Positions 2,994 through 8,080 of a stretch of 13,543 nucleotides of DNA are shown piece by piece. Both the position numbers and the translations under genes were made by a program. The notes under the pieces were generated by a model. The model did no database searches and was not told the DNA's origin. It saw only the letters and a list, made by a program, of their open reading frames with translations. The stretch lies in the NCBI GenBank assembly GCA_003136075.1, contig PNBP01000057.1, forward strand, positions 50,225-63,767. The letters are read 5' to 3'. This DNA is from Methanoregula sp. (GTDB taxonomy: Archaea; Halobacteriota; Methanomicrobia; Methanomicrobiales; Methanospirillaceae). How positions within the stretch are numbered: the first letter of the stretch is position 1; every line of letters begins with the position of its first letter.

Positions 2994-4076
2994 TTACGAA
3001 AAAACCGGGCTTACAAGAATGATGATACCAACAAGTATCATTGAGATACCAATTGCCAGTCGGAGCATCCGGCGGTTTTCCAGTCTCCACACGTTCACCC
3101 GCTCCGGGGGCAGACCAAACACAATCACCAGCAGGATCAGGATCAATGGCAGGATAAAGATGAAATTGTACAGGACAAGATACGGCAATCCCTGTGAGAG
3201 CGAAAGGTTGGTGCTCATGAGCCCGAGTATCGCAAGGTAAATACCACCCGTACAGGGCAGTTCAAAGATCCCCACAAGAACCCCAAGAACAAATGCAGCA
3301 GGCAGTGTCGCCACTTTGATGTACCGGTCGATGAGCGGTTTTTTGGAGTCAGGAATCGCAAGGATGAAACCCCGGTTGTTGCGGAGAGTATCGATCACAT
3401 TCACGAGCCCGAGAACGATGGCAAGGATCGCTGCTATCGTCGAAATCAGGGACGATATCCCGGATACATGGACAAAGGAGAATATACCAATACCCGAGAG
3501 GAGATAGAAGCAAAAGACCGCCGCAATATAGGTGCTCCCCACCATCAGCACCTGTCTCCGGCTCTGGAGCGAGACAATTGACAAGAGCAGGATGATCAGG
3601 ACGGAGAAAGCACACGGGTTGATACTGTCGATCAGAGCGCAGGAGATGATGAGCGGTAGTGTTAAGGTATTTGTTGCTCCGGGGCAGTTTCCTGAACCAG
3701 TAACATTTGCCGGGCTTGACGGCGCCAACCCCTGCTGCTGTTCAAGAATTGCCGGCTCAAGTTCGTCGCGGATCTTCCCTTCACCTACAAGCGCATGTGA
3801 GCCGATAATAAGTGTTGGTACACCGGGACTGGTGATGCCAAACGTCTGTGCCATCTGAGAGAATGTTTGCTGGTTTGTGCTGTTGTGATACACCTCAAGC
3901 ATCTGGAGATCAAGGGAAGGATAGCGGGACTGGACATCGGCAAGATACGGTTTGACGTGATCGCAATAGTGGCATTCATCGCCATAAAAAAAATACCCGG
4001 TAATATGCCCCGATTGGTTTGCCCGGATTGCAGAAGGAGATGGGGGGAGGGTTTGTGATGGCCCGGGCTCATTTAC
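2994..4076 (-). CDS. Second thioredoxin-like domain fused to CcdA/DsbD-like membrane domain; no start codon of its own
   Basis: The open frame runs from a stop at 4107-4109 to TAA at 2994-2996. Counting from codon 4076-4074, residues about 25-110 form a thioredoxin-like domain with YFFYGDECHYC (C35, C38) and the cis-proline loop SPGVP. A linker follows, then six hydrophobic segments of the CcdA/DsbD transporter type, with DSINPCAF (C155, first segment) and ELPCTGG (C275, fourth segment) as the likely redox pair. The family carries reducing equivalents from cytoplasmic thioredoxin across the membrane. No ATG, GTG or TTG lies in frame before the CHYC motif; the first ATG (3902) would delete it, leaving 302 residues. 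The conserved CHYC region shows that coding continues upstream, into the end of the preceding gene. The most economical reading is a fusion with that gene through a -1 shift at 4077-4085. A pseudogene or a sequencing error in the A9 run are the alternatives. Confidence 0.82.
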   Translation of the reverse strand, partial: VNEPGPSQTLPPSPSAIRANQSGHITGYFFYGDECHYCDHVKPYLADVQSRYPSLDLQMLEVYHNSTNQQTFSQMAQTFGITSPGVPTLIIGSHALVGEGKIRDELEPAILEQQQGLAPSSPANVTGSGNCPGATNTLTLPLIISCALIDSINPCAFSVLIILLLSIVSLQSRRQVLMVGSTYIAAVFCFYLLSGIGIFSFVHVSGISSLISTIAAILAIVLGLVNVIDTLRNNRGFILAIPDSKKPLIDRYIKVATLPAAFVLGVLVGIFELPCTGGIYLAILGLMSTNLSLSQGLPYLVLYNFIFILPLILILLVIVFGLPPERVNVWRLENRRMLRLAIGISMILVGIIILVSPVFS

Positions 4077-4345
4077 TTTTTTTTTAATTCTTCGATGATC
4101 AGATCTTCAAGTTTAGCGGGGATGTCTTTATCCCCGATGAGCACCGTCTTTCCGATGACTACTTCCGGAACACCCGGGGGTGAGATGCCTGCCTCTTTGT
4201 TCACGGCAGCAGAAATCTCCTGATTTGTCTGGTTATACCAGGTTTCGAGAATCTGGAAATTGACATCCGGATATTTTTTTGTCAGGTTGAGAATAAACGG
4301 CATCACGTTTTCGCAATGAGTGCATTTATCGCCATAAAAAAAATA
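3978..4345. repeat. 18-bp identical repeat within the paired thioredoxin domains
   Basis: The same 18 bp (ATCGCCAT, eight A, TA in total) occurs at 3978-3995 and 4328-4345 on the plus strand. On the minus strand it encodes YFFYGD just before each CxxC motif, so it reflects an internal duplication of the thioredoxin module. The copies are 350 bp apart, one base short of 117 codons, which is the same one-base frame difference seen at the A9 run. Confidence 0.7.
4073..4085 (-). promoter_or_regulatory. Candidate -1 frameshift or transcriptional slippage site (A AAA AAG before TAA)
   Basis: Read on the minus strand, the first thioredoxin gene ends TTA AAA AAA AAG TAA. The nine A contain the heptamer A AAA AAG in the correct phase for -1 slippage, followed at once by the stop. 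This heptamer is the one used in E. coli dnaX, and A9 runs support transcriptional slippage in Thermus dnaX. A -1 shift continues as GTA AAT GAG CCC into the CHYC/CcdA frame. No strong downstream hairpin is visible, only a GCCCGGGC palindrome. TAA is immediately followed by an ATG at 4072, but that ATG is in a third frame. Function is inferred. Confidence 0.45.
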
Positions 4346-4489
4346 GACGGTCAGGTTTCCCGCAGGGATGGCAGTGGCGGAAGTCGCTTCAGCCGGGTTC
4401 TGGTTCAGGATACCTCCTGCAAATACTGCCAGGCAGCCAATGACCACGACAATAACCAGGCCTGCACAAATTTTCAGGATTTTATCCAT
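4073..4489 (-). CDS. Membrane-anchored thioredoxin-like protein (CTHC)
   Basis: This 138-residue protein has a short positive N-terminus, a hydrophobic segment at about 7-28 that acts as an uncleaved anchor or signal, a low-complexity linker, and a thioredoxin-like domain. The domain begins LTVYFFYGDKCTHC, giving redox cysteines C56 and C59, and has the cis-proline loop PPGVP near its end. The predicted orientation places the domain outside the cytoplasmic membrane, where it could reduce or isomerise disulfides in exported proteins, fed with electrons by the adjacent CcdA-like domain. The start at 4489 has a good SD (AGGAG, complement of 4496-4500, 6 bp spacing). The end is unusual: an A9 run and TAA leading directly into the next frame. 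It may be a free protein, the N-terminal part of a larger fusion, or both. Confidence 0.85.
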   Translation of the reverse strand: MDKILKICAGLVIVVVIGCLAVFAGGILNQNPAEATSATAIPAGNLTVYFFYGDKCTHCENVMPFILNLTKKYPDVNFQILETWYNQTNQEISAAVNKEAGISPPGVPEVVIGKTVLIGDKDIPAKLEDLIIEELKKK

Positions 4490-4559: not shown

Positions 4560-5435
4560 TTATTTCAGGGAGATCATGGTGCCTACACCCTCACGGGTGA
4601 ACAGCTCAAGAATAAGATTGTGCTCCACATTCCCATTGATGATATGCGCATAGGTGACACCGTTTTCTACTGCTTTTATGACCGACATCACTTTCGGGAT
4701 CATTCCTTCTCCGATCGCCCCGGATTTGAGCATTGCGTGGGCTTCTTTGATGGTCAGTTTCCGGTACACCTGCGTGCGTTTAACATCCATTACGCCATCG
4801 ACATCGGTCATGTTGATCAGTTTGAACGCCTTGAGTGCTACCGCAATATCTCCTGCCGCCGTGTCAGCATTGATGTTCAGGTTCCCCCCAAACCGGTCGA
4901 TGGCGATAGGGGATATGACAGGAATATAGTCCCGTTCGAGTAGGGTAGTAAGAAGAGCCGGATCAACCCATTCGATCTCACCGACATGACCAAGATCCAC
5001 TTCCTTTTCCACTCCCTCATCTGTCACTTTCTGGAGATCCATCTTCCGGGCGATGATCAGGTTCCCGTCGCTCCCCGATAACCCGACTCCCCGTGCACCG
5101 CATTTTGCGATTAAGGAAATAATGCCTTTGTTGATCTTGCCAACGAGTACCATCTGGGCGATCTCAAGAGTTTCCTGATCGGTGACCCGGAGTCCTCCGA
5201 CAAACACGGATTCCTTGCCGAGTGCCTTCATCTTCTCGGAGATTTCGGGCCCGCCCCCATGAACGAGCACAACGTGGATCCCTACGTAATGCAGGAGTAC
5301 CGCATCCCGTATGGCATTCTCAAGGACGACCGGGTCCACCATCGCATGCCCACCGAGTTTTATGACAATCGTCTTGCCATGGAACTGCTGGATATAGGGG
5401 AGGGCTTCCATGAGGACGTCCTCACGCTTCATCAT
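4560..5435 (-). CDS. argB: Acetylglutamate kinase
   Basis: This 291-residue protein is a full-length amino acid kinase-fold enzyme that phosphorylates N-acetyl-L-glutamate with ATP, the second step of the acetylated arginine/ornithine pathway. Visible motifs are IKLGGHAM near the N-terminus (phosphate-binding lysine), VHGGGPEI (substrate and glycine-rich loop), [20 protein letters not shown] (nucleotide and substrate contacts) and GMIPKV near the C-terminus. It is the last gene of the cluster, and its ATG at 5435 overlaps the argJ TGA by 4 bp. A strong SD, GGGAGGT (complement of 5446-5452), sits 7 bp before the first of two consecutive ATG codons. The family is often inhibited by arginine through an N-terminal helix; whether this one is cannot be judged. 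Confidence 0.97.
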
Positions 5436-6589
5436 GTAGTATACCTCCCGTTGATCTCGATGTACTTTTCGGTAAGATCACAACCCCATGCGGTTGCTTC
5501 TGCTTCCCCGGCAGCGAGGTCCAGATCGAAGATGACTTTTTTGCCGTGCATTGCCTCTTTTGCCTTTTTGAGATCGGCAATAATCTCCCCGGATTTGACC
5601 AGCGGATACCGGTGTGTGCCGTCGCTGATCCACAGGGAGCAGGCATTGGGATCAAAGGTTACTCCAGCACGCCCGGCGGCTGCCACGACCCGTCCCCAGT
5701 TGGGATCCTCGCCATACACCGCAGTTTTCACCAGCGGGGACTCTATGATCGTCCGTGCAACTTTGGCTGCAGCCTCCTCTTTTGGCGCACCCCGGACGGT
5801 CATTTCGATCAGTTTTGTCGCACCTTCCCCGTCCATCGCTATCTGTATGGCAAGGTTTTTGCAGCATTCCTCAAGTGCAGCAGAAAACTCATCATCGTTT
5901 ACCTTCCCTGCTTCTCCGGTTGCCGTGCACAGCGCCATATCATTGGTGCTGGTATCGCCATCCACGACTACCCGGTTAAACGACCGCCGGGTTGCCTGTT
6001 TTAGCGCAGCGGCGAGCGGTTTTGCCGCTATCTCTGCGTCAGAGTAGATGAACGCGAGCATAGTTCCCATGTTTGGTGCGATCATGCCGCTTCCCTTCGC
6101 GATACCCCCGATGCTAAACGTTTCTTTCCGGACAAGCGCATGCTTCTGGAACGTATCGGTGGTCATGATTGCCTGTGCGGTGAGTGCTTCGGTTTCAGCG
6201 GTTCGACCAAGTTTTAACGCAGTCGCAGCGCACTGGCGGCGGATGAGCGGAAGATCGATGTAGCGTCCGATCACTCCGGTGCTTACTACTCCGACGCGGG
6301 ATGCTTCCACCCCAAGCGCAGACCCGGCAAATTCTGTCATGGCAACGGCATCGTCATACCCTTTCTTACCGGTGTAGGCATTTGCACACCCGCTGTTGAC
6401 AATGACGGCATCGAGCGCTCCTTTCTTGATCTGCTTTTGCATCAGTTCGTTGGGTGCTGCCCGTGTGAGGTTTTTGGTAAAGACACCGGCTGCCGTCCCG
6501 CTTGCACGGATCAGGGCAAGCCCGAATTTTCCTTCCTTCATGCCATATGCGGTCACACCTTGTATGGCACAGATACTCTTCATCTTCAT
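5432..6589 (-). CDS. argJ: Glutamate N-acetyltransferase / ornithine acetyltransferase
   Basis: This 385-residue member of the ArgJ family moves the acetyl group from N-acetylornithine to glutamate, recycling it within arginine synthesis; some members also use acetyl-CoA. Motifs include [10 protein letters not shown] (65-74), STGVIGR (103-109) and the self-cleavage site [16 protein letters not shown] (165-180). The N-terminal Ntn-type nucleophile is T176, so a precursor of normal length should split into alpha and beta chains between G175 and T176. The residue before the threonine is glycine instead of the more usual alanine. Its ATG overlaps the stop of the CBS gene by 4 bp, with an AAGGA SD upstream. 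Whether it is mono- or bifunctional cannot be told; no separate argA is in the window. Confidence 0.97.
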
Positions 6590-7083
6590 GCGTTCATTCC
6601 TTCATTTTCCTTTGTGTACGATGATCCCAGTGCCTGGACAATATCTGCCCGGGTAAGAATTCCCACGAGTTGTTTTCCCCTCACAACCGGAAGCCGTGCA
6701 ATTCCCTCTTTGAGCATCAGCGCCGCTGCCTGTTCAATATCCATATCCTCCGTTGCCGTGATCACCCGGTGCGTCATTACTTTCTTTACCGGTGTATCGC
6801 CGATATTGCGTAGTGCGTGTTTGGTTTTTTCCCAGTTGACATATTCCCGGATCGGGACTTCGATGATCTCGAGCGGTGAAGGAAGCCAGAGATCATCGGA
6901 TATCCGCTCTGTCTGGAGCTGTGCGATGACATCTGATTCTGTGAGAATCCCTGCAAGTTCATCGCCATCCATCACCGGAAGCCCCCCGATATGATGCAAA
7001 CGCAACAGCCCGACTGCTTCACGGAGCGGTGTAGTGACGGAGCATGTGATGAGATTTTTTGTCATTGTTTCGGAAACGAGCAT
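6586..7083 (-). CDS. Protein of two CBS domains, embedded in the arginine operon
   Basis: This 165-residue protein consists almost entirely of a CBS pair (Bateman module). The first repeat begins VSETMTKNLITCS and includes GGLPVMD and GILTESDVI. The second begins VKKVMTHRVITAT and includes ARLPVVRG and GILTRADIV. CBS pairs bind adenine nucleotides or S-adenosylmethionine and usually regulate an attached or partner protein. No catalytic or DNA-binding domain is present. The gene sits between argC and argJ: 10 bp after the argC stop, with a near-perfect SD AGGTGATC (complement of 7087-7094) 5 bp before its ATG, and a 4-bp overlap with argJ. This placement suggests a link to arginine synthesis, for example nucleotide sensing, but that is inference; family membership alone does not give a function. 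Confidence 0.92.
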   Translation of the reverse strand: MLVSETMTKNLITCSVTTPLREAVGLLRLHHIGGLPVMDGDELAGILTESDVIAQLQTERISDDLWLPSPLEIIEVPIREYVNWEKTKHALRNIGDTPVKKVMTHRVITATEDMDIEQAAALMLKEGIARLPVVRGKQLVGILTRADIVQALGSSYTKENEGMNA

Positions 7084-7093
7084 ATCTGATCAC

Positions 7094-8080
7094 CTACGGT
7101 AGCATACCGGCAGCCATAAGACCGTCGGTTTCCTTAAATCCGCACATCAGGTTCATATTCTGGATTGCCTGCCCGCTCGCACCTTTCACGAGATTATCAA
7201 TCGCCGATACCGCAACAACCCGCAATCCTTCGCTTTCTACCAGGAGGTCGCAGAAGTTGCTGCCGCGAACTGCAGAGAGCATCGGTTTCTGGTACCGGAC
7301 AAAATATTCATTTTTATAATAGTCCTGATACAGTTTCTCGACCTCTTTTGTTTCCATTGGCTCGTTGAGAAGGATATGAGCGGTGGTCAGGATTCCCCGG
7401 TTTACCGGTACGAGATGGGGCGTGAAATAGCACCGTGCGGCTGAGCCGAGACCGGCAAGTTCCTGTTTCATCTCCGCAAGATGCCGGTGGGTAGTCAGTT
7501 TGTACGGTCCGACATTGTCACCGACATTGGGATAGTGGGTTGTTGCTGAAGGGTTGTCACCGGCACCGCTTACCCCGGTTTTTGAATCGTAGATGACAGT
7601 ATGGGCGTATTTTGCCAGGGGAGCTGCGGCAAGCGTTGCGCCGGTGGGAAAACAACCGGGGTTTGCGACAAATTTGGCATTTATACATTCCTTGCGGTGG
7701 AGCTCGGGGATACCATACGGTGCCGGGAAATAATCCGTATGGGTGACACCGTATGTTTTTTCGTAAATATCTTTTGGCAGACGGTAATCGGCACTGAGAT
7801 CGACAACTTTTATCCCCCGGGACAGCAATGCACCGGCATAGGTCATTGCCGCTGTATGCGGGACGGCAAGAAATGCAACGTCTGCATCGATCGCATCCGT
7901 CTGCGGGTTCTCAAACTTGAGGTTCGTAAACCCTTTGAGATGAGGATGGATCTGGTCAAGCGGCGTGCCTGCCAGTTTGCGTGACGTGGCAGTGACAACC
8001 TCCGCGGAAGAGTGCTGGTACAGGAGGCGGATCAGCTCCCCACCGGCATACCCGGACGCTCCGATAATCGCAACTTTCAT
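7094..8080 (-). CDS. argC: N-acetyl-gamma-glutamyl-phosphate reductase
   Basis: This 328-residue NADPH-dependent enzyme reduces N-acetylglutamyl phosphate to the semialdehyde, the third step of the acetylated arginine/ornithine pathway. [10 protein letters not shown] (7-16) is the Rossmann dinucleotide loop, NPGCFPTGA (140-148) carries the catalytic cysteine C143, and later GVSGAG and HRHLAEM match the family. The length fits the usual 310-350 residues. It is the first gene of the argC-CBS-argJ-argB cluster, and the upstream 139 bp should hold the operon promoter. The ATG at 8080 lacks a clear SD, which suggests a leaderless or unusual mRNA start. Nothing appears truncated. Confidence 0.97.

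Follow-up and report, generated by a model that had tools for sequence, protein, structure and literature searches.

In the dnaX gene of Thermus thermophilus, transcriptional slippage takes place at a run of nine A's (A9; PMC1088944), and a magnesium chelatase cassette with nine A's gives 40% frameshifting in E. coli (PMC3711429). The dnaX gene of E. coli undergoes -1 ribosomal frameshifting at A_AAA_AAG. Among archaea, fucA1 of Saccharolobus solfataricus is the only reported cellular -1 case according to a 2021 review, which also mentions predicted magnesium chelatase and virus cases (PMC8211752; all three papers are cited here for the portions available to us). Thioredoxin and CcdA go unmentioned in the main text of a 2013 genome-wide study, as judged by term counts, and in the part examined of a 2016 recoding review. 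A survey of titles and opening parts of abstracts in the open-licence literature, which is not proof of absence, likewise returned no prior report of frameshifting or slippage in a thioredoxin or CcdA gene of archaea.

The locus described here lies in a 13,543-nucleotide stretch of DNA from Methanoregula sp. (the window) and encodes a membrane-anchored thioredoxin-like protein (Trx1), whose 3' end is overlapped in the -1 frame by a second thioredoxin-like domain followed by a CcdA-like membrane domain (Trx2-CcdA). On comparison of the sequences, we consider it likely that slippage at the A-run joining the two frames is maintained and gives both Trx1 alone and a Trx1-Trx2-CcdA fusion. As in Thermus dnaX, the sense strand carries an A9 run with a nearby stop in one frame, and two N-terminally identical products would result (PMC1088944). 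Unlike that system, where slippage adds the shorter product, the templated frame is here predicted to give the short product and slippage the long one; the gene is also a different one and the RNA polymerase is archaeal. The -1 split at A-runs, the fused homologues and the presence of archaeal members recall the magnesium chelatase genes of Methanocaldococcus, Methanococcus and bacteria (PMC3711429). Their function is unrelated, however, the present gene coding for a membrane thiol-disulfide protein in other methanogens. In the case of fucA1, the product known to be functional is the full-length enzyme. The locus shares with it a cellular archaeal gene, a slippery heptamer and a -1 joint (PMC8211752), but differs in that the short form amounts to a whole anchored domain and the layout recurs in 20 genomes.

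The Trx1 ORF in the window ends in GAA TTA AAA AAA AAG TAA, and the -1 frame has a stop at 4107-4109 and is then open from 4106 to its stop at 2994 (370 aa; Table 1). The original prediction for this DNA had placed the only possible joint between these two stops, with the A9 run and an in-phase A_AAA_AAG heptamer inside it and with no ATG, GTG or TTG in the -1 frame upstream of CHYC; all of these features are present, and an in-phase A_AAA_AAA lies one codon earlier. Joined at KKK, the predicted protein would comprise 138+360 = 498 aa, a length obtained by counting. Runs of eight T's in the sense strand (eight U's in the mRNA) at 3986-3993 and 4336-4343 encode YFFYG in both thioredoxin domains, and represent another possible slip-prone run. 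Upstream of the thioredoxin locus, argB, argJ-like, CBS-pair and argC-like genes stand in a row on the minus strand (4560-8080), argB alone having been profile-tested and the other names coming from reading of the ORFs. A tandem pair of related ORFs that carry the cysteine motif CRGCNAC (510-1196 and 1193-1792) resembles iron-sulfur flavoprotein or FMN reductase relatives, names that were again given by reading alone.

Table 1. Features of the thioredoxin locus in the window (positions from its first letter)
Feature	Position	Strand	Remarks
argB (AA_kinase)	4560..5435	-	Pfam AA_kinase 152 bits; directly upstream of Trx1, conserved neighbour
Trx1, zero-frame product, thioredoxin-like, membrane-anchored, 138 aa, C-terminus ELKKK*	4073..4489	-	
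N-terminal hydrophobic anchor of Trx1, residues about 5-27	4409..4477	-	maximum 19-mer Kyte-Doolittle (KD) value 2.86
CTHC active-site motif of Trx1	4313..4324	-	sequence
Sole interval where the Trx1 frame and the -1 frame can be joined	4073..4106	-	bounded by stops on both sides
A9 slip site (predicted), zero frame TTA AAA AAA AAG	4077..4085	-	
Zero-frame stop TAA directly after the A9 site	4073..4075	-	
Linker in the -1 frame, 34 residues, no start codon, no membrane segment	3975..4076	-	maximum KD -0.22
CHYC active-site motif of Trx2, -1 frame	3963..3974	-	sequence
Trx2-CcdA-like part of the predicted fusion, -1 frame, 360 aa and stop	2994..4076	-	
302-aa ORF from an internal ATG, lacking CHYC; database protein P0002	2994..3902	-	

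Both active-site motifs, CTHC and CHYC, are present in the window proteins, and both thioredoxin domains taken alone fall below the Pfam cut-offs (Trx1 scores 18.5 bits for Thioredoxin, cut-off 23.5); an in-frame homologue lies above the same cut-off (37.2 vs 23.5 bits). A model of the in-frame homologue from G016 (L089; 33 rows, mean pLDDT 79.7, pTM 0.49) places the two thioredoxin domains at about 45-140 and at 158-248, joined by a loose linker (141-154); a helix at residues 3-27 precedes them and the membrane helices follow, though with a pTM of 0.49 a fixed arrangement of these domains is unsupported. Comparison of this model with the PDB by Foldseek gave 869 matches at E <= 10, four of them at E <= 0.001. 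The best 50 of the 869 are mostly thioredoxin-fold structures with poor whole-chain superposition, along with a few odd rows such as a beta1-adrenoceptor entry, and CcdA is absent among these 50. When solved structures were searched by profile, the matches fell on the thioredoxin part, with a best E of 0.0009 among 60 of the 85 rows.

As in DsbD and CcdA transporters, the thioredoxin-like domains are joined to a membrane domain that keeps a pair of cysteines, here C165 and C285, both invariant across a 19-row alignment. The protein differs from those transporters in having two N-terminal thioredoxin domains behind a single anchor, and in a membrane domain that lies below the Pfam cut-offs: the window protein reaches 29.3 bits for SfLAP (cut-off 35) with no match to DsbD_TM, and a fused homologue (P0017) reaches 21.8 bits for DsbD_TM (cut-off 27.1). 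We therefore call this domain CcdA-like, and do not treat it as a certified member of either family. Judging from the anchor and from generalities about DsbD and CcdA, both thioredoxin domains would be located outside the cell.

Two database searches, with the window protein and one fusion as queries (1233 and 1134 matches), yielded 218 proteins as the union of the best 120 from each; since they were chosen by similarity to these queries, class counts among them are not natural frequencies. Fusions with two thioredoxin domains and an anchor make up 39 of the 218, and in nine of these KKK is retained ahead of the second CxxC. Three thioredoxin-like domains precede the CcdA-like domain in a gene of G019 (L019) and in 37 of the retrieved proteins. 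Both the CxxC site and the anchor are missing from 63 of the 218 by automatic motif classes, in which some entries may be contig fragments; the 63 include a 305-aa NCBI record (P0157), and the class points to misannotation.

The search set consisted of 39 genomes of the genus, whose loci were read on the coding strand. All but one (G024) contain a match to the locus, and in 20 of the 39 Trx1 and Trx2-CcdA occur as overlapping frames in the -1 relation (G000, G003, G005, G009, G010, G011, G014, G018, G021, G023, G025, G026, G027, G029, G030, G032, G033, G035, G036 and G037). One in-frame gene is found in three genomes (G016, G020 and G019, the last with three thioredoxin domains), and in three others (G006, G008 and G022) the gene after Trx1 is a distinct Trx2-CcdA gene that starts at an ATG of its own and carries a membrane anchor. 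Nine more have an own-start Trx-CcdA gene (G001, G004, G012, G013, G017, G028, G031, G034 and G038), the locus of G015 is broken across two contig ends, and the matches in G002 and G007 are limited to a partial thioredoxin at a contig end. An ArgB-like C-terminus is encoded just upstream of Trx1 at 19 of the 20 frameshift loci, and the linkage to argB also holds at each of the three fused and three separate loci. The split arrangement is not a local accident; it is conserved at one orthologous locus, which also exists in fused and separate states without the A-run. In G023 (L062) Trx2 and CcdA are separated by a frame change, close to which a base is unresolved; this is probably an assembly fault. 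A second CcdA-like stretch in G010 (L073, G010:C220), 61% identical and with two internal stops, is possibly a decayed copy.

The chief rival named in the original prediction was a sequencing indel. The metagenome bin from which the window comes is incomplete (2.16 Mb, 197 contigs, 82.9% complete) and homopolymers are error-prone, as expected if the split reflected a pseudogene or a fault of sequencing or assembly in that bin. Such an origin is barely credible, given that the same split, at A9 or A10, is seen in 20 of the 39 genomes. Five of these are single-contig genomes (G011, G018, G021, G033 and G036) with an identical split, which makes local sequencing error unlikely as a general cause, and the 90%-identity cluster of P0002 comprises three contigs, the longest of 1,350,471 bp against 66,460 bp here. 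Against a pseudogene, Trx2-CcdA is conserved and shows a clear third-position excess in seven close pairs. A point against the slippage reading is that the linker is only weakly constrained, nonsynonymous codon changes outnumbering synonymous ones in wider pairs (e.g. 20 to 3 in G014/G030).

The 20 overlapping pairs were chosen by frame overlap before run length was tabulated. The run at the joint is A9 in 11 and A10 in nine, and in all 20 the downstream frame is -1 and the zero frame reads K-K-K; the tabulation sought at least nine A's near the end of Trx1, and the locus readings give no overlapping pair without such a run, a case that the original prediction had proposed to look for. As the 20 genomes are related by ancestry and the counts are not independent, the 20/20 was not converted to a probability. 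The start of the run falls in codon position 1, 2 or 3. An in-phase A_AAA_AAG, the heptamer of E. coli dnaX, is present at 14 of the 20 sites, the window included, and A_AAA_AAA takes its place at the other six (G014, G025, G029, G030, G033 and G037); the emphasis that the prediction put on a dnaX-type site is weakened by these six. A zero-frame stop occurs 0-5 codons past the run in every pair and at most one codon past it in 15, compared with chance levels of 17.6% and 6.4% at 2610 positions drawn at random from long ORFs in the sample of G011.

The hairpin and Shine-Dalgarno sequence of E. coli dnaX have no conserved counterpart here. Downstream RNA structure was sought at the 20 loci and none was conserved, the mean stability percentile being 0.56 with values below 0.1 in two loci only (G018 and G029). 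A search for upstream Shine-Dalgarno sequences at the same loci gave matches of 0-5 nt and none conserved; G014 has AGGAG 10 nt upstream of the slip site, and the remaining loci are weaker or misplaced. Given these weak or misplaced matches and the lack of a standout structure, stimulators of the dnaX type are not conserved.

The -1 linker is 28-36 residues long, with a maximum KD of at most 1.02 across the 20 loci versus at least 2.53 for the Trx1 N-termini. Since the linker has no membrane segment and the Trx1 N-terminus is hydrophobic, Trx2 would obtain an export anchor only via Trx1, in line with the topology argument of the prediction. It might be supposed that Trx2-CcdA is translated alone, by ribosomes that use a non-standard start codon or re-initiate once they have terminated on Trx1, with the A-run being incidental. 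Five of the 20 linkers do contain an ATG, GTG or TTG, and the start overlaps the stop as in coupled genes in G010 (TTGA) and G025 (GTGA), with CTGA at seven more loci. Separate translation is nonetheless quite improbable: the stop is TAA in 11 of the 20, so that the overlapping -1 triplet is NTA, no ATG, GTG or TTG lies between the slip site and the CxxC in the other 15 linkers, and Trx2 would miss the anchor that is found in own-start homologues at the same locus. It also leaves the run of at least nine A's in 20 of 20 pairs unexplained.

The fused and own-start genomes provide natural controls for the A-run, which reaches nine A's in none of the three fused and none of the three own-start loci. 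The joint of the fused G016 gene reads CTA AAA AAA GAA and those of G020 and G019 have no run; where an own-start gene follows, the A's at the end of Trx1 are interrupted by G in G006 and G008 and number eight in G022. Other Trx1 genes ending without A9 are the second copy in G033 and those of G038 and G048. These relatives answer two checks put forward with the original prediction: where the second gene has its own start it is also anchored and Trx1 lacks A9, and none of the three fusions at the same joint carries A9. They bear as well on phase variation, in which replication slippage would toggle the length of the run and so put the two parts in or out of frame. Such variation can occur at homopolymers (PMC3711429, in the part available to us), and fused forms bearing KKK are found in metagenomes, where they are represented by protein sequences only. 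Yet all 20 loci with at least nine A's are out of frame alike, with none in frame, and the three fused genomes have no such run, so that we regard toggling as very improbable.

As a background for these counts, 400 kb of each of three single-contig relatives (L177-L196, L227-L266) were examined with the slip locus excluded, taking ORF proxies (about 1.0 Mb) rather than annotations as genes. In this sample 8 of 89 KKK tripeptides are encoded by at least nine A's, and the A-run at the joint, present in 20 of 20 pairs, exceeds chance. Sense runs of at least nine A's number 10, where synonymous shuffling predicts 22.6 and none of 200 shuffles went as low; for A8 runs the observed and predicted figures are 30 and 44.1, with 4 of 200 as low. 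A6 and A7 runs are above the shuffle expectation in all three relatives. With 20 shuffles the expectation for at least nine A's was 20.8 (Poisson P 0.007); as it varied at 20, 200 were used. The depletion of A8 and longer runs suggests avoidance of slipping in the genus, and that of at least nine A's, which is about two-fold only, is as expected if long runs slip there.

A tree of Trx2-CcdA was built with 47 rows, of which 19 are slipping loci (G023 was left out, and the G032 row is 44% filled); the metagenome fusions were placed on it from protein alone. By our reading the slipping state forms five groups on this tree and needs eight changes, and in-frame fusions are scattered among these groups, so that neither the origin of the state nor how often it was gained can be read from the tree. 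The commonness of in-frame fusions among the retrieved proteins, their position beside frameshifted genes on the tree and the KKK kept in some of them would suit a tolerated indel, in which the run of an in-frame ancestral fusion became longer or shorter by one A, adventitious slippage rescues enough of the full-length protein and the short form has no role. We consider this improbable because the split is found in 20 genomes and five tree groups with the run held at 9-10 and a single sign of shift, and because a stop lies 0-5 codons away in all of them, far above its chance level. In addition, free anchored Trx1 is a separate gene in several relatives, indicating that the short form can be useful. 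Against the two-product reading, the in-frame fused relatives within the same groups show that some species can do without the short product.

In light of these observations, we propose that slippage makes the locus a single expression unit with two outputs. Normal decoding would yield Trx1 alone, anchored outside the cell, with its stop just past the A-run. In a share of events, A9 or A10 would give a net -1 shift, either by one extra A in the transcript or by a -1 slip of the ribosome on AAA-AAA/AAG. Decoding would then continue along the linker, which has no anchor, to cover Trx2 and the CcdA-like channel, producing a protein of the order anchor-Trx1-Trx2-CcdA (498 aa in the window). The recurrence of the same split in the genus supports this link of Trx1 to Trx2-CcdA by a -1 event, as first predicted. 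The fusion might conduct electrons from inside the cell via CcdA and Trx2/Trx1 to targets outside, with free Trx1 serving as an extra electron carrier.

The published data on A-runs, in the portions available to us, fit either polymerase or ribosome slippage (PMC3711429, PMC1088944). Slippage of RNA polymerase at the run is slightly favoured, and we give it about an even chance. Consistent with it, the run has at least nine A's in every case though the heptamer needs fewer, the codon phase of the run is free and stimulators are not conserved. To our knowledge, E. coli has no tRNA-Lys(CUU). The relative examined for this purpose (G011, 30 of 44 tRNA loci scanned) differs in having it alongside tRNA-Lys(UUU), and slipping at AAG should for this reason be weaker than in E. 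coli. A -1 slip of the ribosome at the run, whose chance we put somewhat under even, is favoured by a perfect in-phase A_AAA_AAA or A_AAA_AAG at all 20 sites. The same -1 sign needed in 20 of 20 pairs counts against the polymerase version, since a ribosomal -1 slip gives it directly. Both forms of slippage may also act together.

In its strongest form, the proposal is that programmed RNA-polymerase slippage operates genus-wide and sets the ratio of free anchored thioredoxin to a thioredoxin-thioredoxin-CcdA electron conduit, for which we see a chance somewhat short of even. If true, an archaeal polymerase would here perform set-ratio recoding like that of Thermus dnaX, and would do so in a redox pathway. 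The locus adds a strongly conserved candidate, in methanogens, to the few known archaeal -1 cases. With fused, separate and putatively slipping versions at one locus serving as natural controls, it offers a way to test if A-runs are exploited for set-ratio expression by the RNA polymerase or the ribosomes of archaea.
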